Below, in pieces: positions 3,319-30,060 of a stretch of DNA of 37,740 nucleotides. The stretch comes from a virus. Below the pieces are notes generated by a model that saw only the letters and a list, made by a program, of their open reading frames with translations, was not told where the DNA came from and did not search any database. The first letter of the stretch is position 1. Every line of letters begins with the position of its first letter. A program made the translations under genes and the position numbers. The stretch covers positions 1-37,740 of IMG/VR virus record IMGVR_UViG_3300035188_000491. One strand, 5' to 3'.

Positions 3319-3693
3319 TTACGAGGAGGAGAGATTGATGTGGTGTTGGCATTTTGGGCATGTGATGGATTTGGAGAATGGTTTGACTGGTATTCCGAGC
3401 CATTGGCAGAGGCTGGTGAATGATTTTCTTCCGTAGTTCCTGAACTTGTATGGGGCTAATTTGTTTTCCTCGATGGCGAGCATGGCTGCGAAACGGTCGG
3501 TGATATCGAGGGCTTTGAGGATTGATCGGTTGCGTTGTGACAGGCCGTGATCCCATCGGGATTGGTTGCGGTGAGCTTCCACTATTTGGCCTACTCGTTG
3601 TTTTGTGAATCCGAGTTCGCGGGAGATTTGTGTGTATGAGTATCCTTTTGTTCTGAGTTCGGACACCTTGACGATGGCATCTGAGGTTTTCAT
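3319..3693 (-). CDS. HTH protein with RNA polymerase alpha-CTD-like domain and zinc knuckle
   Basis: This 124-residue protein is a probable transcription regulator. Residues 18-42 (YSYTQISRELGFTKQRVGQI) match the helix-turn-helix of sigma-70 region 4. Residues 51-101 resemble the C-terminal domain of the RNA polymerase alpha subunit: LSQRNRSILKALDI, then NKLAPYKFRNYGRKS (the helix-hairpin-helix 'N-[FY]-G-R-K-S' signature), then a closing helix with WLGI. A CPKC pair at 112-115 followed by HH could bind zinc. The ATG at 3693 is fixed by an ATGA overlap with the upstream HTH gene. The domain reading is by eye and needs a profile search. The protein could bind promoters or contact host RNA polymerase. 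Confidence 0.65.
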   Translation of the reverse strand: MKTSDAIVKVSELRTKGYSYTQISRELGFTKQRVGQIVEAHRNQSRWDHGLSQRNRSILKALDITDRFAAMLAIEENKLAPYKFRNYGRKSFTSLCQWLGIPVKPFSKSITCPKCQHHINLSSS

Positions 3694-3887
3694 TTGTGTT
3701 TGTACTTGCTTGGGAATTTGACGTTGTTGCGGATGTACCACAGTACGGAGTTCGAGAGGTTGTATTTCTTTGAGAGTTCCAGATAGGAGATTGTTGGATG
3801 TTCCTTGAGGATCATTGCCCGGATGTGGTCGGGGACTTTGGCGAATCGACGTTCGCCTGGGCGGCATTCTGGGAGGACGGGTTTCAT
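3690..3887 (-). CDS. Small helix-turn-helix protein
   Basis: This basic protein has 65 residues. Residues 28-56 (HPTISYLELSKKYNLSNSVLWYI) fit a helix-turn-helix, with the second helix NSVLWYIRNN as recognition helix. It overlaps both neighbours by ATGA, which fixes the start at 3887 and suggests co-translation with the alpha-CTD-like protein downstream. It probably binds DNA; its target is unknown. An alternative is a Trp-repressor-type or transposase-type HTH. Confidence 0.65.
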   Translation of the reverse strand: MKPVLPECRPGERRFAKVPDHIRAMILKEHPTISYLELSKKYNLSNSVLWYIRNNVKFPSKYKHK

Positions 3888-4096
3888 ATCTTCTCCGTCA
3901 GTGATCTCAGATATCGGTTCCGCTCTTTGGGTTTGACGTTGATGAGGTATTGGATTGCGCCACAGGCGTTAATGCTGGCGGTGTGTTCCCAATGCTCTTT
4001 GTCAAAGTAATTTGCTACACTTCCAGATGTGACAACGATTCGCCCGGTCTTCCGGTGCTTGAAGACGAATGCAACAGGGTCGATGGGGGTGTTCAC
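3884..4096 (-). CDS. Small hypothetical phage protein
   Basis: It has 70 residues and starts at GTG4096, which overlaps the upstream stop (GTGA). It reads VAFVFKHRKTGRIVVTSGSV followed by ANYFDKEHWEHTASI and a helical end (AIQYLIN). I have the impression of similar small proteins in environmental phages but know no function. It is the distal member of the run of genes joined by GTGA junctions. Confidence 0.6.
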   Translation of the reverse strand: MNTPIDPVAFVFKHRKTGRIVVTSGSVANYFDKEHWEHTASINACGAIQYLINVKPKERNRYLRSLTEKI

Positions 4097-4242
4097 GGCT
4101 TCTCCTTCCTTCTCAATTTCCCCAGCCAGTCGAGCAGCGGACCGATCTCTTGGATCAGCACGACCAGGACGATCAACAGTCCGAATGCCGTTGCGGCGAA
4201 TGTGAGCAGGAGGATGATACCGATGGTTGCGAATACGCTCAC
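4093..4242 (-). CDS. Small single-membrane-segment protein
   Basis: It has 49 residues from GTG4242. One strong transmembrane segment lies at about 5-33 (TIGIILLLTFAATAFGLLIV), followed by a basic C-terminus (KLRRKEKP), so the C-terminus probably faces the cytoplasm. The start is chosen from the GTGA overlap with the upstream gene and the AAGGAGG-like site seven bases before it; a longer frame to 4338 is only the other frame of the neighbour. Function unknown. Confidence 0.65.
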   Translation of the reverse strand: MSVFATIGIILLLTFAATAFGLLIVLVVLIQEIGPLLDWLGKLRRKEKP

Positions 4243-4556
4243 AGCTTGTCCTCCTTGGCTTTGTACCACTTTGCTTTTACGTCTGCGCTCAACGCAATCC
4301 AGTCGCAATACTCCATTGAGTCTTCGGGCATCAACCATGCGTTCAGCATCGCATCCCCCGCTTCCTCCAACCGCTTGATGCGGTCTTGAGCCACGTTGAG
4401 TTCGCGTTCGAGTTGTTCAATGGTTCTATTGGCCCACCACTCTCTTTCATTTTTTGGAATGACCGAAGACATGATTTGATTGCGAAGTTCTTCTCGTGGC
4501 GTCGCGTTGCACGGTGTATCGCTAACCATTTTGTTGGTGTCACCAATATGGTTCAC
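4239..4556 (-). CDS. TPRTDA/RIKRLEEA-family small coiled-coil protein
   Basis: It has 105 residues from GTG4556, which overlaps the upstream stop. An inner ATG at 4526 gives the MVSDTP start seen in its relatives. Central helix: EQLERELNVAQDRIKRLEEA, a short coiled coil. It ends WYKAKEDKL, with the last residues encoded by the Shine-Dalgarno of the next gene. It belongs with 5184-5456, 5453-6064 and 6061-6357, which share the RELN and RIKRLEEA blocks at DNA level. Function unknown; oligomerisation or protein binding is likely. Confidence 0.7.
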   Translation of the reverse strand: MNHIGDTNKMVSDTPCNATPREELRNQIMSSVIPKNEREWWANRTIEQLERELNVAQDRIKRLEEAGDAMLNAWLMPEDSMEYCDWIALSADVKAKWYKAKEDKL

Positions 4557-4981
4557 GGCTTTGCCTCCTGAAAGTTGGGGCTACAGTTCCGGCGCAGCCA
4601 ATCGGACTGAGCATTCCAAGCCGCATCCCAATCCGCATTCCAAGCCGCAGCCCAAGCCGCAGCCCAAGCCGCATCCCGAGCCGCATCCCGAGCCGCAGCC
4701 CGATCCGCATCCCAAGCCGCAGCACGCTCCGCAACATCCAGCGCGGCAACACTACGCGGGTCGGACATCAGATGCTGGACCTGCCGAGCGCACCACACCG
4801 CGAACAATCGCAGCTCCTTATTGGTCAGCACTCCATTTTGAGTAGCCACCCATAGCAGCCATTCAGGCTTCAGCTTGTTCCACGCATCTTGCATGGATTC
4901 GCAATTCGCGAGGGCCCAGTCTCGACCATCCTTGCAAGCACTATGCTTGTCGCAAAACCGCTCAATAGTCATGTCGCTCAC
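4553..4981 (-). CDS. AAW-repeat protein (Imm5-like, tentative)
   Basis: It has 142 residues from ATG4981. The N-terminal domain (MTIERFCDKHSACKDGRDWA ... LRLFAVWCARQVQHLMSDPR) is followed at about 87-127 by tandem four-residue repeats of the type AAWD/AAWA, encoded by a 12-base DNA repeat at 4612-4735. The combination of a cysteine-containing helical head and Ala/Trp repeats recalls Imm5-type putative immunity proteins; that is an impression from memory, not a search. The C-terminus EAKP is set by the shared junction box. Repeat number could change readily by slippage. Confidence 0.65.
   Translation of the reverse strand: MSDMTIERFCDKHSACKDGRDWALANCESMQDAWNKLKPEWLLWVATQNGVLTNKELRLFAVWCARQVQHLMSDPRSVAALDVAERAAAWDADRAAARDAARDAAWAAAWAAAWNADWDAAWNAQSDWLRRNCSPNFQEAKP
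4612..4735. repeat. 12-base tandem repeats inside AAW-repeat gene
   Basis: On the plus strand the unit is close to CCAAGCCGCATC/G, repeated about ten times with drift (Ccc AAG/AAT/GAG/GAT CCGCA). Each unit encodes Ala-Ala-Trp-Asp/Asn/Ala/Arg on the minus strand. It is a coding minisatellite, not a CRISPR array, because no distinct spacers exist. Confidence 0.85.
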
Positions 4982-5187
4982 GGCTTTGCCTCCTTGGCTT
5001 CAGTGTAAAAGGTGATGCTGATTGATGCGTAAAGAATGAACGGCTTACCGCACTTATCACATTCACGGTCCGACGGGGTTTCGTCGGCATCACCGCTCGA
5101 TGTGTCGGCTTGGTACCTATATCCGCAATGCGGGCAGATGATGTCGCAGTCATCCATTTGATCGCCGGGTTTAAAGTCGTTGCTCAC
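4978..5187 (-). CDS. Small zinc-ribbon protein
   Basis: It has 69 residues from GTG5187 (GTGA overlap with the upstream stop, AAGGAGG seven bases before). Two CxxC knuckles, CPHCGY at about 19-24 and CDKCGK at about 43-48, form a zinc ribbon, preceded by an acidic DQMDDCD stretch. It ends FYTEAKEAKP, where the last residues come from the shared junction box. It could bind nucleic acid or protein; function unknown. A longer frame upstream of GTG5187 is discarded because it is the other frame of the neighbour. Confidence 0.75.
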   Translation of the reverse strand: MSNDFKPGDQMDDCDIICPHCGYRYQADTSSGDADETPSDRECDKCGKPFILYASISITFYTEAKEAKP

Positions 5188-5456
5188 AGCTTTGCCTCCT
5201 TGGCTTTGAACCAGTTCTCGGATGCGCTCTGGCAAACTTTGCAAAGACCATAGCATCCACACCCGCATCCAAGTTTTTTTTCGACTGCATCCCCCGCAGC
5301 CTCCAACCGTATTATCCTATCAACCAGATCAAGAGTGTGAATATCAAGCTTCCTGTACATCCCACACGCTCGGTTAAGTTCACGTTCGATGTCCTGAGCT
5401 ACTTTTCGTAGATCATCAATGCTATACGTAGCATCCGTCCTCGGTGTTTCGCTCAC
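5184..5456 (-). CDS. TPRTDA/RIKRLEEA-family small protein with cysteine cluster
   Basis: It has 90 residues from GTG5456. It starts MSETPRTDATYS, has a helix with DIERELNRACG, a degenerate coil block (DRIIRLEAAGDAV) and then a cysteine-rich insert (CGCGCYGLCKVC) not present in its relatives. It ends WFKAKEAKL on the junction box. The insert may bind zinc. Same cassette family as 4239-4556; function unknown. Confidence 0.7.
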   Translation of the reverse strand: MSETPRTDATYSIDDLRKVAQDIERELNRACGMYRKLDIHTLDLVDRIIRLEAAGDAVEKKLGCGCGCYGLCKVCQSASENWFKAKEAKL

Positions 5457-6064
5457 GGCTTTGCCTCCTTGGCTTCAAGTGCTTCTGCCGCTTTGTCGAT
5501 TGCGTACCAGCAAGCGTCTATCATTGCTCGCTCGTTGTTGTCTCGGTTCCAGTATTCTCGAATGGACTCAAGCGCCTCCTCCAACCGCTTGATGCGGTCT
5601 TGAAGCCGCAGGTTCTCCTTCTGTAGGTCCAAGACAATGCTATAGGTCAATGCTGCATCTCCAGCATCCAACCGCTTGATGCGCTGCTTGACAGCCACGA
5701 TCCAGTCTGGAACGTCTCTCCCAGATTCGCATCCAGTCAGTTCGCAAAGGATCCGCTCCGCAGCGGCGTTGCCACGGTTAAGAGCTTCGATGCGCTCGTT
5801 GGCCGCGTTGAGTTCGCGTTCGATGCGTTTCATCTCACCAGCTAGGTCGTACATCGTAGCGTCAGGCTCGAAGTACGCAGCATCCGTCCTCGGTGTATCG
5901 CTGACCATTTTGTTGGCTTCAGGCTTATCCCGCCAGTGGCAGGTATGAACGCCTATTCGATGGCCTGGAAAAGGACCAGTACCTTCGTCATGCCAGCAAA
6001 TGCATTCCGCGTCTGTCGCATGGAGTGCTTTGCAGTCATTGGTTTTGTAGTAGTATTGCTTCAC
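5453..6064 (-). CDS. Composite cassette protein: cysteine head fused to TPRTDA coiled coil
   Basis: It has 203 residues from GTG6064 (GTGA overlap, AAGGAGG before it). Residues 1-52 form one module (KQYYYKTNDC, ECICWHDEGTGPF, HTCHWRD). MVSDTPRTDAAYF then begins a second module that matches the start of other cassettes, followed by a long coil with RIERELNAANERI and three RIKRL-type blocks. It ends EALEAKEAKP. This looks like two or more cassettes joined in frame. The inner ATG could also serve as a separate start, but it has no Shine-Dalgarno. Function unknown. Confidence 0.7.
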   Translation of the reverse strand: MKQYYYKTNDCKALHATDAECICWHDEGTGPFPGHRIGVHTCHWRDKPEANKMVSDTPRTDAAYFEPDATMYDLAGEMKRIERELNAANERIEALNRGNAAAERILCELTGCESGRDVPDWIVAVKQRIKRLDAGDAALTYSIVLDLQKENLRLQDRIKRLEEALESIREYWNRDNNERAMIDACWYAIDKAAEALEAKEAKP

Positions 6065-6357
6065 GGCTTTGCCTCCTTGGCTTTGTTCCATGCTTCAATT
6101 TCTGACAACATTAAGGCCGCAGCAGCACCGGGAGTTATTTTACTTCCCGCCTCCTCCAACCGTTTGATGCGCCCTTGAAGATCGCGGATCTTGGCGCACT
6201 GTGCATCGGCCATCCATTGCTCGCGCATGATGCGAAGCACCTCGGCTGCTGTCTCCGTAGGCTTCAAATGCTCGGCTACAGTGATGCGTCCATCGGCGTG
6301 GATGGTTAGTAATTCCGCATTACACTTTTTGCTATCAAGGATGATTGTATCGCTCAT
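6061..6357 (-). CDS. RIKRLEEA-family small protein
   Basis: It has 98 residues from ATG6357, fixed by an ATGA overlap with the upstream gene. The N-terminal half is unlike the other cassettes (MSDTIILDSKKCNAELLTI, TAAEVLRIMREQW). The C-terminal half carries the shared coil (LQGRIKRLEEAGSKI) and ends WNKAKEAKP. This mixture of a private head and a common tail supports exchange between cassettes. Function unknown. Confidence 0.7.
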   Translation of the reverse strand: MSDTIILDSKKCNAELLTIHADGRITVAEHLKPTETAAEVLRIMREQWMADAQCAKIRDLQGRIKRLEEAGSKITPGAAAALMLSEIEAWNKAKEAKP

Positions 6358-6542
6358 TTGCACTCCTTCCATTTGAACTGCGGTTTACCATTAGTGTCAG
6401 CCACCCACTCGGCATGGCCTTTTAGCACGGCTTCTTTTTGCATATTATCCATTCCGGTATTGATTCCACATAGGTTTGTTATTGTGCATGCAAAGATAAC
6501 CAAGACGACGCATGGAATTATTAACGGTTCATATTCTTTCAT
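6354..6542 (-). CDS. Small membrane protein
   Basis: It has 62 residues. A single hydrophobic segment lies at about 6-26 (PLIIPCVVLVIFACTITNLC), followed by a hydrophilic tail (KGHAEWVADTNGKPQFKW). ATGA overlaps on both sides fix its limits. The tail, on the far side of the membrane if the N-terminus is inside, is too short for an enzyme. Function unknown. Confidence 0.65.
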   Translation of the reverse strand: MKEYEPLIIPCVVLVIFACTITNLCGINTGMDNMQKEAVLKGHAEWVADTNGKPQFKWKECK

Positions 6543-6862
6543 TTCGCCTCCCTCGCTTTGAGCATTGCGTCGGCCACTGCGTATGCATCTTCGGCCGCTT
6601 TATTCCATGCATCTTTGCCTTCGTAATAGCCAACATCGACTGATTGTCCTGCTAGATTCCCCTGCAACGCAGCCGCCGCGAAGTAGTCGCGATTTGATTT
6701 GCGGATCATGTCATCCAGCCAATCTGTACCGCTCTCCGGAACGCGCAGTTTGATCGCAGCGTATTGACGCAGGGTCATTCCGAAGTGGTCAGCATTGTTA
6801 CCTTCGGGATGATACCCCATCGGAAACGCCGGTCCTCCGTCGTTGATTGGTGTATTGTTCAC
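6539..6862 (-). CDS. DGGPAFP-family phage protein
   Basis: It has 107 residues from GTG6862 (GTGA overlap with the upstream stop). It contains the recurring phage pattern NDGGPAFP ... GMTLRQYAA ... DYFAAAALQG ... AYAVADAMLKAREAK, which I know as a common small protein of unknown function in tailed phages. The order and spacing are typical, except that the GMTLR and FAAAALQG motifs are separated by an extra 20-residue segment. It lies in the cassette array and its C-terminus runs into the next ribosome site. Confidence 0.75.
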   Translation of the reverse strand: MNNTPINDGGPAFPMGYHPEGNNADHFGMTLRQYAAIKLRVPESGTDWLDDMIRKSNRDYFAAAALQGNLAGQSVDVGYYEGKDAWNKAAEDAYAVADAMLKAREAK

Positions 6863-7107
6863 GGCTTTGCCTCCTTCTCGAACGTCGCATAGACGTACCC
6901 ATTGGTGGGTGTGTTGAGCTTCTTGGTGTACACGATCCAGATGTTGCTCTTGGTTCCGTCGTTGAGGACGCTCCATCCGTCGCCCGCTGTTTGAATTAAC
7001 ACTCGCGGGTCGGGGTTCATGTTCTGGCGATAGAGGGCGAACTGACCGAGTGCCAGGATGCACCAGCCTAGGATCGTCAAGCTTTCGCCAAGGGTGGGGT
7101 GTTTCAT
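6859..7107 (-). CDS. Small membrane-anchored protein
   Basis: It has 82 residues. A hydrophobic N-terminal segment lies at about 8-26 (ESLTILGWCILALGQFALY), then an exposed domain of about 55 residues (VLIQTAGDGWSVLNDGTKSN, IWIVYTKK). It ends EKEAKP in a junction box. The ATG overlaps the preceding stop. The domain may lie in the periplasm. Function unknown. Confidence 0.65.
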   Translation of the reverse strand: MKHPTLGESLTILGWCILALGQFALYRQNMNPDPRVLIQTAGDGWSVLNDGTKSNIWIVYTKKLNTPTNGYVYATFEKEAKP

Positions 7108-7340
7108 TTGGATGCCTCCAGTTCTTGGATTCGCTTGTTTTGGCGAACAGTTAAATCAACCAGTGCCGACATCCGATCTGCGACCTCATTCAGTAAAAAA
7201 CAGATAATCACTTTGTCATCATTTGAGATTGGCTTTGACTCCGTATACTCAGTGATAACACGCAAAGCGAGTACTAGATCGCTGGTTGAATTAGGCTTTA
7301 GTGATCGTTTCTTGGACTTTTTTTTGGTCATTTGGTTCAT
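7104..7340 (-). CDS. Small basic protein with C-terminal coil
   Basis: It has 78 residues from ATG7340, fixed by an ATGA overlap with the RuvC-like gene. The start is strongly basic (MTKKKSKKRSLKPN), then there is a helical body (LVLALRVITEYTE, DKVIICFLLNEVADRMSALV) and a terminal coil (RQNKRIQELEASK). It could bind nucleic acid. Not recognised. Confidence 0.6.
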   Translation of the reverse strand: MNQMTKKKSKKRSLKPNSTSDLVLALRVITEYTESKPISNDDKVIICFLLNEVADRMSALVDLTVRQNKRIQELEASK

Positions 7341-7795
7341 CGTCCACCTCCGAGTACGTAGTGGAGAATGAGAAGCGCATCCGCGTTGCCGAGGGTGACA
7401 TCGAGGTGCGGGTACAGTTCCTGGGCCTTGGCCTTCAGCTTTCGCTTCCACTCAGGACCAGTCGCGCATGCCTTGCGCCCGCCGAGGCCGAGGGGTTCCT
7501 GCCAGACCTTGGGCTCGACGCGGTGGAGCGCGTAGCCGGCGGCGTAGGCCAGTCCTTGGATGATGCCGTAGTTCTCGTGAAGCGTGGCCACTGCTGAGGC
7601 AGGGGTCAGCTTTGACACGAACTTGGGGACCTTCTCGATCCACAGGTGGGAGTCGGCCAGCTTGAAGCCGCTTAGTAGTTGCGCCATATCCGGTAAGGAT
7701 TCGGGCATTGGGAACAGGAGTATCCCGTCCTTGGTGTGGACAGCGAACCCGCCTTTCACGCCGGGGTCACATGCGATTACGATTCGATTGCTCAT
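7337..7795 (-). CDS. RuvC-like Holliday-junction resolvase
   Basis: This 152-residue protein is close to the usual length for a RuvC-fold nuclease. IVIACDPGVKGG gives Asp10, LWIEKVP gives Glu54, and GNADALLIL near the C-terminus gives Asp139, the acidic triad of the RNase H fold. It would cut four-way junctions made by the phage recombination genes and may trim branched DNA before packaging. It is followed by the small cassette genes and overlapped at its start by a tiny membrane-protein gene. Confidence 0.82.
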   Translation of the reverse strand: MSNRIVIACDPGVKGGFAVHTKDGILLFPMPESLPDMAQLLSGFKLADSHLWIEKVPKFVSKLTPASAVATLHENYGIIQGLAYAAGYALHRVEPKVWQEPLGLGGRKACATGPEWKRKLKAKAQELYPHLDVTLGNADALLILHYVLGGGR

Positions 7796-9548: not shown

Positions 9549-10334
9549 TTACTGTTGGTCGGACTGACGAGCCGCCCACGCGGGCAGCGAGAGGGATTGA
9601 ATGCCTGACGAGTAGCAGGGCCACGAGTTGAGCTGTTGGCATTCGACGAACGTGCGGAGTTGCTCCTCGATGATGCTGTGACCGAGGTCGATGGCCGGCT
9701 GATCGAGTTCGTAGCAGGCCACTCCGTAGGGTTCTTCCTTCTCGATGGCGATGAAGACGAAGCGATTGATGCCTGTGATGCGCTGGTACCACGCGGCTTG
9801 AACGTGATAGCGGAACTGGGCGCATGACTTCCCGAATGCCACTGGCGATGCGTCCTGGGTGGTTTTGACATCGACGATGTAGTCCTTGCCGAGACCGTCG
9901 ATGCGGGCTTTGACCTTCACGCCGTCCCAAGTGTCGAAGAAAGAGACTTCGGTCTGGATGTTGTGGAGAAATGCGGCAGCGGCGGGGTGGGCGTGAACCG
10001 CTGCGGCGGCTCCGGTGATGTTGTCCCATTGCTCTTGGTTGAGCGTGGTGCGACCGGACGACAGGACAGCCTCGTAGGCAGCTTTTCCTTCCTTGGTGCG
10101 CCGATCGCCCGAGAACGCGGTGTAGGTGGCCGCGAACAGGTCGGGTTCGAGGATGGCCATGTGAACGGCGGTGCCGAACTCAAGGGCGGGCGACGACTCG
10201 TCCTTGGTCCTGCCGTCCTGCCATGCGCGGAAGTGGGCGGGCGACCGCCGGAACTGATCGAGGCCGGACTTGGAGAGTGCCTTGGTGCCGTGGTAGATGG
10301 CCGCCGGCATTCCGTGGATTACCTCGGCGCTCAC
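9549..10334 (-). CDS. RecE/YqaJ-like PD-(D/E)XK exonuclease
   Basis: It has 261 residues from GTG10334 (GTGA overlap with the upstream gene). It opens with the typical MPAAIYHGTKALSKSGLDQF segment of exodeoxyribonuclease VIII-type PDDEXK proteins. LEFGTAVHMAILEP holds the conserved histidine, and VKARIDGL followed by YIVDVKTT gives the Asp and D-x-K catalytic residues. It would resect double-stranded ends 5' to 3' and hand the 3' strand to the RecT-like annealase encoded two genes upstream. Confidence 0.85.
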   Translation of the reverse strand: MSAEVIHGMPAAIYHGTKALSKSGLDQFRRSPAHFRAWQDGRTKDESSPALEFGTAVHMAILEPDLFAATYTAFSGDRRTKEGKAAYEAVLSSGRTTLNQEQWDNITGAAAAVHAHPAAAAFLHNIQTEVSFFDTWDGVKVKARIDGLGKDYIVDVKTTQDASPVAFGKSCAQFRYHVQAAWYQRITGINRFVFIAIEKEEPYGVACYELDQPAIDLGHSIIEEQLRTFVECQQLNSWPCYSSGIQSLSLPAWAARQSDQQ

Positions 10335-10930
10335 TGGGCACCTCCGTTGATATCGACAGGCCACTCACCGGCTTCCACCTTAGACCAGAAGGCCCTTGCA
10401 ATCGCCTCGTCGCCACGGGCAAGTCGCAGGTACTCGGTACGCTTCTCCTGCCTAACCTTGGCGTTGTACGCTTGTTGGCGCACCTCGCTGTATTTCTCAA
10501 GGCACTCGTCGCGCACCTTGTTAAACTCAGTGTCGTCTTGAAAGAACTCCGTGAACTTGGCCGCTTTGTCATCGCTCTTGCTGACACCAATCCACGCGAC
10601 CTCGACGGTGGCTTCCGATGCTGAGATCTTCAGGTCTTCTCGGTTGTAATTGACCTTTTCGATTTTCACCAAGCCCTCCAGAGCAGCCAAAGCCTTAGCC
10701 TCGTCCATCCAACCAAAGTCGGTCACATTGTAATTCTGCCGCAGGCGGAACACCTTGATCGCCTCCGCAGGCTTCTGATACCCGCGCCACTCGGAGCGAC
10801 GGAGCGCCTCGCTCAGGGTGATCGGTGGTTGAATGTTCCGGTCGATGGCTTCAAGCCGGATGGAGTCGTTGAGGTCTTCGTTGGAGAGACCGAGTATCTC
10901 AGTGTCGGTCAGTTGATTGAATGATTTCAC
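10331..10930 (-). CDS. Hypothetical protein of the recombination module
   Basis: It has 199 residues and sits between RecT-like and RecE-like genes with GTGA/ATGA overlaps, so it is co-translated with them. Not recognised. It is mostly helical and acidic at first (DTEILGLSNEDLNDSIRLEA), with a middle strand-rich part (SEATVEVAWIGVSKS) and a charged C-terminal helix (EVRQQAYNAKVRQEKRTEYL). It could be an accessory factor for the nuclease-annealase pair. Whether the position means more than synteny is unknown. Confidence 0.65.
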   Translation of the reverse strand: MKSFNQLTDTEILGLSNEDLNDSIRLEAIDRNIQPPITLSEALRRSEWRGYQKPAEAIKVFRLRQNYNVTDFGWMDEAKALAALEGLVKIEKVNYNREDLKISASEATVEVAWIGVSKSDDKAAKFTEFFQDDTEFNKVRDECLEKYSEVRQQAYNAKVRQEKRTEYLRLARGDEAIARAFWSKVEAGEWPVDINGGAQ

Positions 10931-11709
10931 GGCTGCACCTCCGCGTTCACGATCTCGGGAGTCACGATCACGGGCAGCTTGCTCAGGATGAGGTCAGGCT
11001 TGCTGATGTACTTGCTGGCGAATGCGTCTTCCAGGTCGCGGAAGGTCTGGCCTTCCTTGATGCGACCGGCTTTCAGCAGCAGCGCGTTCACATCTTCCTC
11101 GCGGGACTCGAACAGTTCTTCGAGCTTGGCAACGAGATCGAACGCCTTGGTAGGCGTGACAGCGACCTCGGAAGCGGCGGGCTGGAAGTCCTCGGTCTCC
11201 TCCGGGGTGTAGATACCGGCGACGACCTCCGGAGCCAGCATACGGATCGCTTTGCTGATGCACCGGGCGCGGAGCATGGCTCCCGGATCCTTGACCCACC
11301 CGGAACCCGGCTTGGCGGGGAGCAGGCCAGCGAGCTTGGCGTCCTCGGTCGTGAAACCGATCTCGCACTCGTTGCCGTCGTACTTCCAGACAGCGACTGC
11401 CGCCTTGGTGTCGAACTGCTTCCACACCACCTTACCACCGCGGGCGCGGTAGCCGGCCAGCATGGCATCGGAGCGCATGCTGAGTGAGCCGTTGATGATG
11501 TGGTACTCGCGCTTGAAATCGAACGGGGTCTTCTTTTCGGCGGCGCACTGCCACGCGATGAGTTTGCCCTGTTCGACCTTGGTGCATCCGAGCATGCCGG
11601 ATGATGCTATCCACTCGCCCATCTTCTCGATGGCGGTGATGGGGTCTGCGATTTTGCTGTACATCTCTGCGGATGGATCAGCGGTTGTCGTTGCGATTGC
11701 GTTGTTCAT
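10927..11709 (-). CDS. RecT-like single-strand annealing protein
   Basis: It has 260 residues from ATG11709, fixed by an ATGA overlap with the HTH gene. The core fits the RecT family: KKTPFDFKREYHIINGSLSM, then DAMLAGYRARGG, then WVKDPGAMLRARCISKAIRM followed by LAPEVVAGIYTPEE, the usual 'R..A...R...P....G.Y..EE' block. It would pair complementary single strands during recombination-dependent replication and end joining. Partners: RecE-like nuclease, DUF669 SSB-like protein and RuvC-like resolvase. Confidence 0.8.
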   Translation of the reverse strand: MNNAIATTTADPSAEMYSKIADPITAIEKMGEWIASSGMLGCTKVEQGKLIAWQCAAEKKTPFDFKREYHIINGSLSMRSDAMLAGYRARGGKVVWKQFDTKAAVAVWKYDGNECEIGFTTEDAKLAGLLPAKPGSGWVKDPGAMLRARCISKAIRMLAPEVVAGIYTPEETEDFQPAASEVAVTPTKAFDLVAKLEELFESREEDVNALLLKAGRIKEGQTFRDLEDAFASKYISKPDLILSKLPVIVTPEIVNAEVQP

Positions 11710-11879
11710 TTGCTGTTGTTTCTGAGGAGTTGTTCGACTACGTCGGAGCGGACACGGATCGTGCGCTTCGTTGCTCTCATGGCTGGAAGCCGACCATCCC
11801 TGATCCATCGACGCACCGTCTCGGGATGAGTCCCGAGCGCCTGTGCGATCTCTTTGATCGAGAGTAGTTTTACGCTCAC
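11706..11879 (-). CDS. MerR/excisionase-type helix-turn-helix protein
   Basis: It has 57 residues from GTG11879. SIKEIAQALGTHPETVRRWI is a classic HTH_17 (excisionase-family) motif, followed by DGRLPAMRATKRTIRVRSDVVEQLL, the wing. No Shine-Dalgarno precedes the GTG; a TTG at 11915 is an alternative. It is the first gene after the structural block and heads the recombination operon, so it may autoregulate that operon. No integrase is present, so a role in excision is unlikely. Confidence 0.75.
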   Translation of the reverse strand: MSVKLLSIKEIAQALGTHPETVRRWIRDGRLPAMRATKRTIRVRSDVVEQLLRNNSK

Positions 11880-11940
11880 GGACCAAAGAATGGACCGTGT
11901 TGCCGAGAGTTGCAAACTTTTTCTTGAGAAATTATTTCTC
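11880..11940 (-). promoter_or_regulatory. Possible promoter/operator for the recombination operon
   Basis: This is the only clear break in the leftward gene string between 9.1 and 25 kb that precedes a regulator. On the minus strand it holds GAGAAATAATTTCTC (11926-11940), a palindrome with 7-base arms around one base; TTGCAA with CATTCT 17 bases later as a weak -35/-10 pair; and two GGTCC copies 12 bases apart. If that promoter is used, the mRNA would start almost at the GTG, so translation would be leaderless. The palindrome overlaps the preceding stop codon. Confidence 0.4.
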
Positions 11941-23554: not shown

Positions 23555-24439
23555 TCATCCCCAACCGAACTCGACTGCGCCGTAGAAGTTGGTACTGGCG
23601 GCGGTGGCGGCACCGGCGAAGTAGAGCCAAACGAGGCAAGCGCCATCGACGACTCGCGGGAGGCTTGGCAACTGGTTTAGGAGATCACGCTCGGCAGCGA
23701 CTGATGCCGTGGTGATCGGCAGAGTCAGGAGAGGGCGAGCGAGGCAGAGCGCACCGGCACCGGCACCGGAGGAAGCAGAGAATGTGACGCTGGCCACGTT
23801 GGAGACTCCGGTGTCTCCGGAAGCGAGCGGCAGGAACGGGCCGTAGTTATTCGCGGCGGTGCCCGAGTGGGAGATGTGGCCCACGATGGCGGAGGCAGTC
23901 ATGGCCACGGTCACCGGGAGCGAGCGTCCAGCGGTGGGCGTGGTGTTGGAGTAGCTCAGGCTGATGTTGTGGGCGGTGGCACCGGCGGCGGTGGTCTGGA
24001 CCCAGAACAGGCGGCATCCAGCACCGTTGGTGTAACGAAGTGTGGGTGTGCCGGTGAGGGTCTGAAGCGTTGCCGACGCGGTGGAGATACTCGGCCAGTA
24101 GCCCTGGAGATCGACCAGCATCAGTTGGGCTGGAACGCCTGTGGCGACGGCGGTGACAGACGAAACGTTGAGGATGTGCTTGGTGTCGGTGCTGACGTTG
24201 CCGCCGTTGCGAAGCCCGAAGATCTGGGTGCCGTTGCCGGTGGTTTCGTCGCACGATCTCCAGGCCAGAGCGGTGCCTGCCCACGCATTGGCGATCGGTG
24301 TGCCTGCGAGTCCCGAGAAATCGTACCATCGACCGGCGGTGTAGGCGGCTGCACCGGTGATCTTGTTCCAGTCGTTGCGGATGAATTTGCCGCTGTTCGT
24401 GATCTCGTTGACGAGATCGTCCATTGAAGAGAAGCCCAT
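23555..24439 (-). CDS. Tail appendage protein, paralogue of next upstream gene
   Basis: It has 294 residues. It shares with the gene at 24441-25301 the start MGF, AGRWYD, GTPIANAW against GIPVYQAY, TKHILNVS against TKHLFAIS, TPTLRYTNGAG against ATLPRYTDGEG, PFLPLASGDTGV against SFIPLANGDTGI, and the end EFGWG against QFTWN. The two are therefore a tandem duplication with strong divergence. It is beta-rich, with no catalytic motif. It probably forms part of the adsorption apparatus. Confidence 0.65.
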   Translation of the reverse strand: MGFSSMDDLVNEITNSGKFIRNDWNKITGAAAYTAGRWYDFSGLAGTPIANAWAGTALAWRSCDETTGNGTQIFGLRNGGNVSTDTKHILNVSSVTAVATGVPAQLMLVDLQGYWPSISTASATLQTLTGTPTLRYTNGAGCRLFWVQTTAAGATAHNISLSYSNTTPTAGRSLPVTVAMTASAIVGHISHSGTAANNYGPFLPLASGDTGVSNVASVTFSASSGAGAGALCLARPLLTLPITTASVAAERDLLNQLPSLPRVVDGACLVWLYFAGAATAASTNFYGAVEFGWG

Positions 24440-24440
24440 G

Positions 24441-25301
24441 TCAGTTCCAGGTGAATTGGACGAACCCTCTCAGTGGAGCGGGTGTTCCGGTTGTGTTGTT
24501 GAGTATGATGAGGTTGAGGTAGGCGTTGTTCTGAACCTGTACGCAGTTGGCTTTCTGCGTGAAGAACACGGTTTCCGCCTCGGTGTTCTGCTCGCGAACA
24601 ACATGAGTGGCAAGCGGTTTGACCAGAACGATGTGGCAGAAACCACCCATGGCTGTGTTGCAGGTCACTTGCTCGATGCTGCGGATGCCGGTGTCACCGT
24701 TGGCCAACGGGATGAAGGACGAAATGGATCCGGTGCCGAGAGAGCTGTTCGATGCGTTGACGATGCCTCCGATCGTTGTCAGTGAGATGATTCCGAACGT
24801 GGTCGATCGGTTGGAGACACCCTTGCTGTTTGTGTATGTGACCGTGACGGTTCCGTTGCCGGTCATTGGAGCGGCGACAACGAAGTAGGCTTGGACTCCT
24901 TCTCCGTCGGTGTAACGGGGTAGTGTGGCCGACTGAATCATGTCTTGGGCATCCAGCGTGTCCATGTCCACGAGTGGGTAGAACAGAAGGTAATCGGCCA
25001 GAATGATGGTCAGCGGAACGGACGATGTGGATGTTCCTGCCGAGATGGCGAACAAGTGTTTGGTCTGTCCGCTTGCAGGTGTTGGTCCGGTGTAGATGCC
25101 ACGATTGGCTGACCCGGAGATCTGGGTGGCCTCGTATTGTGCTCCGACGTAGGCTTGATAGACGGGGATACCAGCACCTACGGAACCGTCATACCATCGG
25201 CCTGCTGTACCAGATGGAAGGGATGTCTTGAAGAAGAACGACTGCCAGGATTGTCCGTCCTGAGTTGCCTGTGCCAGTGGTAGTATGCCGTTGAAACCCA
25301 T
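24441..25301 (-). CDS. Tail appendage protein, paralogue of downstream gene
   Basis: It has 286 residues and is homologous over its whole length to 23555-24439, with conserved AGRWYD, KHLFAIS, LPRYTDGEG, PLANGDTGI and a C-terminal FVQFTWN. It is beta-rich and ends in the same aromatic pattern. The start overlaps the stop of the small zinc-ribbon gene (TAATG). Two diverged copies in a row suggest a hetero-oligomeric appendage or an alternative receptor binder. Confidence 0.65.
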   Translation of the reverse strand: MGFNGILPLAQATQDGQSWQSFFFKTSLPSGTAGRWYDGSVGAGIPVYQAYVGAQYEATQISGSANRGIYTGPTPASGQTKHLFAISAGTSTSSVPLTIILADYLLFYPLVDMDTLDAQDMIQSATLPRYTDGEGVQAYFVVAAPMTGNGTVTVTYTNSKGVSNRSTTFGIISLTTIGGIVNASNSSLGTGSISSFIPLANGDTGIRSIEQVTCNTAMGGFCHIVLVKPLATHVVREQNTEAETVFFTQKANCVQVQNNAYLNLIILNNTTGTPAPLRGFVQFTWN

Positions 25302-28902: not shown

Positions 28903-30060
28903 TTACAGCGTGGTCGAGGTCTTGGTCCGATGCACCAGGTACCACACCGGGTTGCCGGTCGAGCTGGTATTACCAGCGGCCAGACGCAACGTGGCGAAGT
29001 ACAGCTTCACGCCGACGGTGACGAGCTGGTTCAGCGGATCCGACTTGTCGGGGGTGTCGGTGATCACAATCTTCGGGGACAACGGATCATCACCGGTCAG
29101 AGCAGGGATACCGAACGACTCGTTACCGAAGAAGAACGAGGCGATGATGTCCTTGGTGGCAGCAACGCCGCCGCCATTGGAGCTGGTCTGATTAACGAAC
29201 TCATCGGCAGCGGTGCCGGAGCCGGTGCTGACGAACGAGTTGGTCTGAATGACCACGCGGCAACCGTAGATGGAGCCAACCTCGCCCTTGTAGAACGGCT
29301 GGCCCTTGTTGCCGTAATTGGAGGCGTTCAACCAGTCGCTGTCGCGCATCAGGTCGCGGGCCACGCGGGGGTCGGTGGCCAGGACGTAGCCGCCGTTGAT
29401 CAGCGGGGCGCGGTTGCGCTTCAGGCGGGTCATGGAGTCGAGGACAGCGGATGCCGTCATCGTGGTGTTGGCAGCGGTCGTATCGGTGTTCAGCGCAGAG
29501 AAGGTCTGCGTGGTCAGCGTGGCGGGGTTACCGTACACCTTGATACCACCGGAACCGGCAGCGGTGTTACAGGCGTCCGAGTTGTCGAACGTACCACTAC
29601 CCTCGGCAGCAGTACCAAGAACCGAAGTTCCCGAGGCCAACGAGAGGTTGGAACCAATCAGGGTGTTGCGGATCACCGAGTCCACCCAGAGGGCCATGTC
29701 CAGACCGGAGGTCTTGGTGGCCTGCTGCATGGAGTTGAACAGGTCGGTGGCGCGGAGGATGTCGGTGAGGCCGATGACCTGACCGTACTGCGAGAGCGAC
29801 TTGCTCAGGCTGTTGAGGGCCAGAGCGCGGTAGTTGGCAGCAGCGATGGCCGTACCTTCGGAGCTGATGGTCTGAACACTGCCAATGCTCGGCGGTCCGA
29901 AACGGAACATCGAGATGGCCTTGTTACCATTGTTCTTGGGGATCGGAGCCTTCATGGCGAACTGATCCAGGATGGTCTCCTGCTGAACGATGGAGAGCAG
30001 CTCCTTGCTGAAGTAGTTCTGGAACTGGCTCGTGAGCGTGGTTGAAGTAGTAACTGGCAT
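28903..30060 (-). CDS. Major capsid protein, N4-gp56-like
   Basis: It has 385 residues. The N-terminal arm (TTLTSQFQNYFSKELLSIVQ) leads to a segment that fits the N4-gp56 capsid family: MFRFGPPSIGSVQTISSEGT, SKSLSQYGQVIGLTDILRAT, DMALWVDSVIRNTLIGSN. Later come PLINGGYVLATDPRVARDL and GSIYGCRVVIQTNSF, the loop-strand pair of HK97-fold capsids. Directly downstream of a scaffold-like gene. It forms the head shell. Confidence 0.8.
   Translation of the reverse strand: MPVTTSTTLTSQFQNYFSKELLSIVQQETILDQFAMKAPIPKNNGNKAISMFRFGPPSIGSVQTISSEGTAIAAANYRALALNSLSKSLSQYGQVIGLTDILRATDLFNSMQQATKTSGLDMALWVDSVIRNTLIGSNLSLASGTSVLGTAAEGSGTFDNSDACNTAAGSGGIKVYGNPATLTTQTFSALNTDTTAANTTMTASAVLDSMTRLKRNRAPLINGGYVLATDPRVARDLMRDSDWLNASNYGNKGQPFYKGEVGSIYGCRVVIQTNSFVSTGSGTAADEFVNQTSSNGGGVAATKDIIASFFFGNESFGIPALTGDDPLSPKIVITDTPDKSDPLNQLVTVGVKLYFATLRLAAGNTSSTGNPVWYLVHRTKTSTTL

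Follow-up and report, generated by a model that had tools for sequence, protein, structure and literature searches.

A junction-box cassette array of small genes in an uncultivated phage

We analyzed a 37,740-nucleotide stretch of DNA from an uncultivated phage (IMG/VR record IMGVR_UViG_3300035188_000491, positions 1-37,740; hereafter the window) and found a real cassette array, in which small genes are joined through a repeated junction (J) box and relatives gain, lose or replace cassettes with breakpoints at this box and at a second, in-gene coil (C) box. Based on these sequence comparisons, we propose, with a probability of about 0.78, that the small accessory genes of the array form an operon of fixed order whose members can be exchanged, and that it would be remodeled by short-homology recombination at the J and C boxes.

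The array comprises 12 small minus-strand genes located between a RuvC gene (7337-7795) and an HTH gene (3690-3887) and chained by 4-nt stop/start overlaps. With the HTH gene included, 13 consecutive genes follow the stop of the RuvC-like gene, each overlap is exactly 4 nt, and the array contains no intergenic space. The genes are as follows.

7337-7795, minus strand: RuvC-like Holliday junction resolvase, phrog_1770; marks the array start
7104-7340, minus strand: first gene past RuvC; relatives often carry family 0 (MSELAKK...) in its place
6859-7107, minus strand: cassette with a probable membrane segment; common to relatives L164, L166 and L168
6539-6862, minus strand: cassette, GGPAFP protein, phrog_2201
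6354-6542, minus strand: cassette, small protein with a probable membrane segment
6061-6357, minus strand: cassette whose N-module is paired elsewhere with at least 8 different C-modules
5453-6064, minus strand: cassette, long coiled-coil protein
5184-5456, minus strand: cassette with a SETPRTDA start and a Cys-rich C-module
4978-5187, minus strand: cassette, protein resembling a zinc ribbon, phrog_6504; matches to Pfam zinc ribbons fall below cut-off
4553-4981, minus strand: cassette, Ala/Trp-repeat protein, with homologues at two loci of the EEVQP dialect, L309 and L269
4239-4556, minus strand: cassette, coil protein; C-module (4237-4386) 94.7% identical in L203
4093-4242, minus strand: cassette, small membrane protein
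3884-4096, minus strand: cassette close to the array end; present in 18 RuvC-anchored arrays
3690-3887, minus strand: HTH gene; marks the array end

A sigma-70-type scan found one promoter-like site in the array against 3.0 expected, and we rejected the idea that each cassette has its own promoter or terminator, as the counts were at chance. Folds were predicted with moderate confidence for the products of 6061-6357 and 3884-4096, and neither predicted fold had relatives in the PDB. A PADLOC family search of the cargo returned one marginal coiled-coil match; the cargo may serve host takeover or counter-defence.

The J box (consensus GCCAAGGAGGCAAAGCCGTGA) occurs at seven window junctions with at most 4 mismatches, starting at 6859, 6061, 5453, 5184, 4978, 4553 and 4239, and an eighth copy is shortened.

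6859-6879, minus strand: J box, 2 mismatches
6061-6081, minus strand: J box, exact
5453-5473, minus strand: J box, exact
5184-5204, minus strand: J box, 1 mismatch
4978-4998, minus strand: J box, exact
4553-4573, minus strand: J box, 4 mismatches
4239-4259, minus strand: J box, 3 mismatches
4093-4107, minus strand: J box shorter by one codon, AAGGAGAAGCCGTGA

The sequence-only reading had described about ten genes strung on near-identical boxes. The box-linked array held up, but the box is present at just 7-8 of the 13 junctions, and the remaining junctions have other contexts, mostly ATGA. As that reading had stated, the box holds the upstream stop, a ribosome site and the downstream GTG start, and it encodes AKEAKP (seven junctions, three exact). 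There were no copies on the plus strand of the window, all boxes having the same orientation, and none in 15 composition-preserving shuffles. Conservation extends beyond the Shine-Dalgarno core and the start and stop: a GCC preceding the core is also retained, as is the spacer of 7 nt. Window J boxes share exact runs of 23-29 nt (29 identical bases in two copies), and J-box pairs drawn at random from different contigs have a median exact run of 12 nt. A search for a relaxed form of the box recovered at least 120 stretches in IMG/VR, whereas permuting the spacer left 4. Searching the literature for the motifs gave no match. RNA folding of three boxes was no better than that of shuffles (z -1.4, -1.0, +1.25), and we rejected an RNA hairpin in the J box. 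Junctions upstream of RuvC that appeared to carry the box proved to belong to second-site arrays in other phages or, in L163, to a cassette-type gene before the nuclease. Other phages use a second junction dialect with the tail EEVQP, which differs in both spacer and tail, and homologous cassettes end in the tail of their own phage set. These dialects caution that a conserved C-terminal peptide may reflect the junction, not protein function.

To measure turnover, we compared cassettes whose DNA identity was 95% or higher and asked if their neighbors across the junction were unrelated. Neighbors were unrelated at 38 of 90 J-box junctions versus 38 of 301 other junctions (p=5e-9), a comparison partly confounded by location because J boxes sit in the accessory array, and the J boxes also exceeded the ATG-type boxes of the same arrays (7/45, p=0.002). 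Some cassettes were 100% identical and yet had unrelated neighbors, and the 421 box-joined neighbors represented 366 distinct pairs. Homology blocks begin and end at boxes, both overall and against RuvC-anchored relatives chosen independently of the box. Array content is not identical among relatives, which differ by gain, loss and replacement of cassettes even where their RuvC is 95% identical, and scarless one-gene indels were observed. In L203, the identity of the shared C-module (94.7%) is far above that of the backbone (65-84%), so this module needs transfer. The proposal of cassette exchange thus stood as far as gain, loss and replacement at the J box and the coil are concerned, but free reordering did not: the order of co-occurring families was concordant in 372 comparisons and discordant in 1. 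Among 631 genes we found no repeated family, and indels were commoner than replacements among tightly bounded events. As order is nearly always fixed, exchange appears to be mostly in register, and most of it is not between arbitrary boxes.

The C box, CGCATCAAGCGGYTGGAGGAGGCGGGGGAT, is located inside many genes and encodes RIKRLEEAG with near-fixed synonymous codons (CGC...CGG). The common coil RIKRLEEA, which the first reading had also noted, occurs in intact form in three genes of the window, and a fourth gene (5184-5456) has a degenerate copy. The intact copies and a second near-fixed segment are as follows.

6142-6171, minus strand: C box encoding RIKRLEEAGS; breakpoint in L198 and L166
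5567-5596, minus strand: C box encoding RIKRLEEALE; breakpoint in L166
4353-4382, minus strand: C box encoding RIKRLEEAGD; breakpoint in L203
5880-5902, minus strand: N-terminal DNA segment encoding SDTPRTDA with near-fixed codons

We observed 238 combinations of N and C halves among 276 genes. The C box is predicted to lie at the end of a long helix. Hidden open reading frames that would start at the C box had a median length of 21 aa, and we rejected this idea. The view that chimeras arise solely by deletion between coil boxes was also unsupported, as parents were in deletion-compatible order in 12 cases versus 7.

The window also encodes candidate recombination functions, for which the sequence-only reading had named a RecE/RecT pair and a resolvase: an annealing protein, a nuclease and the RuvC-like resolvase listed above.

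10927-11886, minus strand: RecT-family annealing protein
10331-10930, minus strand: gene between RecT and the nuclease; in relatives replaced or missing, with no scar
9549-10334, minus strand: PD-(D/E)XK nuclease, family DUF3799

We propose that co-infecting relatives recombine at short homologies, mostly in register, with additional deletion between repeats. Because the box spans the last codons and the stop, together with a strong ribosome site and a GTG start that overlaps the stop, any crossover point within it would join an upstream gene scarlessly to a new downstream gene, ready for what we infer to be coupled translation; the C box would do likewise for protein halves, yielding chimeric proteins. 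The likely agents are the RecT-type annealing protein, the nuclease and the RuvC-like resolvase, and we infer both their role and the rate of exchange from sequence. The 23-29 nt exact runs among window J boxes are near the minimal pairing segment of Red-beta, 23-27 bp (PMC3945230). RecT was found in 7 of 11 other array-bearing records and was undetected in 4. A more far-reaching version, which we offer only tentatively, is that at least two lineage-specific DNA adapters are homogenised across cassettes and that annealing recombination keeps building proteins and operons from a shared pool. If so, the adapters themselves, beyond the cargo, would be selected for recombination.

A box shaped like an ideal coupled initiation site could instead be kept by translational convergence, with spacer and start held for best initiation, neighbors changed by illegitimate recombination and selection for intact genes, and no role for the box in recombination. 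Some translational selection is suggested by the spacer segment AGCC before GTGA, which is also seen at other junctions and in L068, an unrelated phage, and a role in translation initiation was proposed for the start-associated sequences of Cluster K mycobacteriophages (PMC3203893). We nonetheless consider this explanation improbable: the same Shine-Dalgarno core and start with a permuted spacer are rare in viruses, the two dialects differ in spacers and tails, J boxes show more turnover than the ATG-type boxes in their own arrays, and the coil box, although inside genes and away from any junction, keeps near-fixed codons and is a breakpoint. The conserved order, the lack of repeated families and the excess of indels would also be expected if arrays were subsets of a large ancestral ordered array, trimmed between direct repeats and with chimeras arising by coil-box deletion. 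This we judge quite unlikely, since 308 families at 60% imply an ancestor with hundreds of genes, the modules shared with L203 are far more alike than the backbone, and the chimera parents barely favor a deletion-compatible order.

Duplication and divergence of one gene family, of which box and coil would be conserved ends, would account for the features common to many cassettes, which begin with DTPRTDA, contain the coil and end in WxKAKEAKP. Given that the box also terminates proteins with no relation to one another (zinc ribbon, Ala/Trp repeat, membrane, GGPAFP), that other-dialect homologues have different ends, and that N and C halves assort in 238 combinations, this origin is very improbable. 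Least credible of all is chimeric assembly at short repeats; the relatives are all metagenome contigs and the box repeats are ~21-29 nt, but these are far below read length, 38 cassette pairs were found in at least two contigs, and misjoins predict neither conserved order, dependence on junction type nor dialects.

Judged from sequence, the array with its J and C boxes is a case of phage boundary-sequence mosaicism, in form like the start-associated sequences (SAS) of mycobacteriophages. Blocks are bounded by a short shared sequence, near-identical modules have unrelated neighbors, and a conserved, non-palindromic sequence with a Shine-Dalgarno core lies just upstream of starts of different families. 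In classical lambdoid phages, modules are exchanged at short shared flanks, the boundary or linker sequences. T4-type promoter early stem-loop (PeSL) mobile cassettes are reportedly small early genes flanked by repeated short elements linked to shuffling. PeSLs lie between genes and combine a promoter with a stem-loop, whereas the present genes leave no space between them, and the sigma-70-type scan and the folding of three boxes detected neither element. Integron cassettes likewise are small genes lacking promoters, arrayed with a boundary element that repeats, but here the genes overlap, order is conserved, no attC-type fold exceeded shuffles in the three boxes folded, and the tyrosine integrase family PF00589 had no match in the 37.7-kb record, which is possibly a fragment. 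A serine-recombinase invertible or shufflon system is equally unlike the array, as PF00239 is absent from the window record and the uniformly oriented boxes provide no inverted sites.

In Rad52-like recombinase mosaicism, modules also swap at short flanking shared sequences, and RecT-type proteins recombine short, diverged homologies (PMC3945230). Here, by contrast, one boundary sequence holding the whole translational junction is reused at most junctions and a second lies inside genes. The SAS and ESAS of Cluster K mycobacteriophages are short conserved repeats with a Shine-Dalgarno core just upstream of many small non-structural gene starts of various families in one phage group, with the upstream stop sometimes included; SAS is 13 bp (5'-GGGATAGGAGCCC), often with 17-bp inverted repeats (PMC3203893). 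The GGGATAGGAGCCC consensus was unmatched by the box consensus here. SAS was proposed to serve translation, has no in-gene partner box, and the passages covered report no cassette exchange at it (PMC3203893). The J box differs in that it always spans stop and start and that relatives differ at it. Domain shuffling in phage proteins similarly leaves fragments common to otherwise unrelated proteins through ongoing shuffling, with emphasis on receptor-binding proteins, endolysins and replication proteins (PMC10684548), whereas here tiny proteins recombine via one fixed ~30-nt DNA box.

These observations address the old question of how operons stay intact while phage accessory genes turn over fast. 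Two repeats, one at gene junctions and one between protein halves, would provide a concrete, testable path to scarless operon remodeling and the birth of new small proteins, and natural recombinants are already plentiful in public metagenomes. No array protein had a match in INPHARED, where the best identities were at most 28% for the capsid and at most 37% for RuvC. Scans aimed at the host led to no assignment. A scan of genome collections gave 11 box matches, and the one that was linked to an array is L160, a phage-like contig of 4 kb that had been binned with a Verrucomicrobiota MAG. Scanning 388 Verrucomicrobiota genomes added one further match, L241, in an ordinary-looking chromosomal context.

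Every window junction from the RuvC-like gene to the small HTH gene on the minus strand is a 4-nt overlap of stop and start. The row of small genes (cassettes) joined in this way, hereafter the array, is bounded by two genes.

7337-7795, minus strand: RuvC-like resolvase, start side of the array
3690-3887, minus strand: small HTH gene, end of the array

The sequence-only reading had described about ten small genes strung together here through nearly identical junction boxes. Its description of the shared boxes was correct, but their number was slightly overstated: the box GCCAAGGAGGCAAAGCCGTGA matched at seven window junctions with at most four mismatches (three exact), an eighth carries the box minus one codon (AAGGAGAAGCCGTGA), and the other junctions have different contexts, with ATGA predominating. 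We found no such box on the plus strand of the window or in composition-preserving shuffles. The upstream frame of the box reads A-K-E-A-K-P-stop, AAGGAGG lies seven bases 5' of the GTG, and the final four bases, GTGA, are start and stop at once.

Among IMG/VR stretches, 24 contain the 21-mer without mismatch and at least 120 a relaxed form (AAGGAGGCMAAGCYGTGA), compared with 4 for a control that kept the same Shine-Dalgarno sequence and start with the spacer letters permuted. A scan for the 21-base pattern over 257 Gb of bacterial and archaeal genomes gave 11 matches; one could be linked to an array, on a contig that resembles phage DNA and was binned with a Verrucomicrobiota MAG. Across the window and 139 fetched loci, 428 of 435 box-like junctions close an open frame 30 codons long or longer. 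We consider the junction box to be more than a ribosome site, with the caveat that the spacer part AGCC before GTGA is also present at other junctions.

Cassettes turn over at these boxes. When 600 cassette proteins were clustered at 60% identity, 421 box-joined neighbor pairs made up 366 distinct family pairs; more than one kind of neighbor was seen upstream for 58 of 67 families and downstream for 52 of 61 (families with the respective neighbor seen at least twice). A stricter test was limited to genes with a DNA identity of 95% or more, and neighbors counted as different only when BLASTP similarity was absent. Unrelated neighbors were then found across junction boxes for 21/48 families upstream and 17/42 downstream, compared with 2/49 and 5/53 at non-overlapping close junctions, 10/77 and 14/77 at other 4-nt overlaps, and 1/19 and 6/26 at ATG-type boxes. 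Fisher tests gave p = 5e-9 for junction boxes against all other junctions, a comparison partly confounded by array location, and p = 0.002 against ATG-type boxes, where this applies less. Furthermore, 100% DNA-identical cassettes from contigs of different metagenomes were flanked by unrelated neighbors.

For a direct test of breakpoints, we picked relatives via RuvC, independently of the box. Array content varied even at 95% RuvC identity, as expected from the earlier proposal that cassettes are gained, lost or replaced among relatives. Breakpoints had been predicted to fall in the box, and they did: between the window and relative L164, homology stops in a box at 6858 and restarts in a box at 4269, with 93% identity over the following 2.26 kb. 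Against relative L203, window positions 4237-4386 are 94.7% identical inside a backbone of 65-84%; this segment begins at a coil box, a DNA box inside genes that encodes RIKRLEEA(G), and stops in a junction box. Over all arrays, 1621 of 5219 alignment ends lay within 25 nt of a junction box (shifted control 655 ± 41, maximum 814) and 732 near a coil box (251 ± 27, maximum 340), but the counts contain redundancy, and differing neighbors would by themselves put some excess of ends at a conserved box, so we place more weight on the strict neighbor test and the individual cases.

The coil box splits genes into N- and C-modules, and its codons are nearly fixed. The first Arg of RIKRLEEAG is CGC in 75/79 cases and the second CGG in 71/79 (against 36% and 15% of the Arg codons of these phages overall), and the Gly is GGG in 55/79 (11% of Gly codons). 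In a further segment, SDTPRTDA, the Arg is AGG in 22/28 (9% of Arg codons). As three different Arg codons are favored, codon bias is ruled out as the cause. Divided at the coil box, 276 genes yielded 166 families of N-modules and 96 of C-modules, which occur in 238 combinations, and 47 of the 51 C families with at least two members were joined to more than one kind of N-module. The N-module of window gene 6061-6357 is paired with at least eight C-modules; in a predicted model of its protein (mean pLDDT 77), the coil box ends a 40-residue helix, with a linker and another helix after it, which makes it a natural border between modules.

Reordering of cassettes, also expected on the sequence-only reading, was not borne out. 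In the RuvC-anchored set, co-occurring families kept the same order in 436/437 pairs, and no family was repeated within one array among 631 genes. Comparisons of dissimilar arrays (Jaccard ≤0.5), which are not independent, were concordant in 372 cases and discordant in 1, and order was kept in 103/112 pairs of the box-selected set. Since order is kept, replacement, gain and loss of cassettes take place in register rather than by free shuffling. Pure deletion between repeats would leave the parents of chimeric genes in deletion-compatible order; this was so only 12 versus 7 times, and identity contrasts require transfer, so we rejected deletion as a sufficient cause. In some phages (L048, L220, L225, L236, L237, L239) the array, with the same cassettes, lies 2-4 kb upstream of RuvC, not downstream, at a second insertion site.

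A second set of virus contigs (L309, L269, L291, L260 and other loci) has small-gene arrays with a different box (GGAGGTGCAGCCGTGA) and the tail EEVQP; some of their cassettes are homologous to cassettes of the window's phage family. Among contigs with at least three boxes, 36/44 of the AKEAKP type lacked any EEVQP-type box and 14/16 of the EEVQP type lacked any AKEAKP-type box; fetching loci by one box or the other favors such a split, but the additional boxes per contig were unselected. Some cassettes have homologs in the two sets (for example ...QRAEAFLRTIGKW-), with the ending EEVQP in one set and KEAKP, EESK or ECK in the other. The C-terminal peptide thus tends to go with phage lineage and not with protein family, suggesting that junctions become homogenized within a lineage. 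Small genes with EVQP/EAQP ends also follow one another at similar junctions in an apparently unrelated phage of high GC (L068:3224-4281), so junction-box arrays may be more widespread.

The RuvC-like resolvase gene adjoins the array, and the window encodes two further candidates for the exchange machinery.

10927-11886, minus strand: RecT-family protein (PF03837, just above cut-off)
9549-10334, minus strand: PD-(D/E)XK nuclease

We propose that RecT-type annealing, the nuclease and the resolvase would exchange cassettes at the boxes. Exact shared runs of up to 29 nt among window junction boxes and 27 nt among coil boxes are consistent with this; according to De Paepe et al. (PMC3945230), Red-beta has minimal pairing segments of 23-27 bp, and proteins of this kind can recombine sequences that are short and diverged. 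However, the median exact run shared by randomly paired boxes of different contigs is only 12 nt, and in 4 of 11 array records no RecT was detected. No tyrosine or serine recombinase was found in the window record. The RecT/nuclease junction also shows scarless one-gene indels and replacements: the intervening gene (10331-10930) is missing or substituted in L163, L164, L172, L181 and L230, with scarless stop/start junctions.

Integrons, T4 stem-loop cassettes and invertase systems were each excluded by the features tested. In form, the system comes closest to the start-associated sequences known from Cluster K mycobacteriophages (PMC3203893); in process, to the boundary-sequence mosaicism that Rad52-like recombinases drive (PMC3945230). 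To our knowledge, no description exists of a repeated translational junction that unites the two and also has an in-gene partner box and dialects, and our literature text search for the box motifs found no paper on them.

The window cassettes encode zinc-ribbon-like, Ala/Trp-repeat, short membrane and coiled-coil proteins, and one belongs to phrog_2201, a family without known function. Because turnover is fast and the operon lies beside DNA-metabolism genes, we infer that the cargo may act in host interaction or counter-defense. The adjoining genes 4978-5187 (zinc-ribbon-like) and 5184-5456 (CGCGCYGLCKVC) encode small Cys-rich proteins for which metal binding is plausible. INPHARED relatives of the major capsid protein (28903-30060) are distant (<30%; the one named relative is a Paenibacillus podovirus), and by this measure the phage belongs to an uncultivated group. 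In the structural region (23555-25301), the neighboring genes 23555-24439 and 24441-25301 have similar starts (MGF..., AGRWYD), suggesting a tandem duplication.
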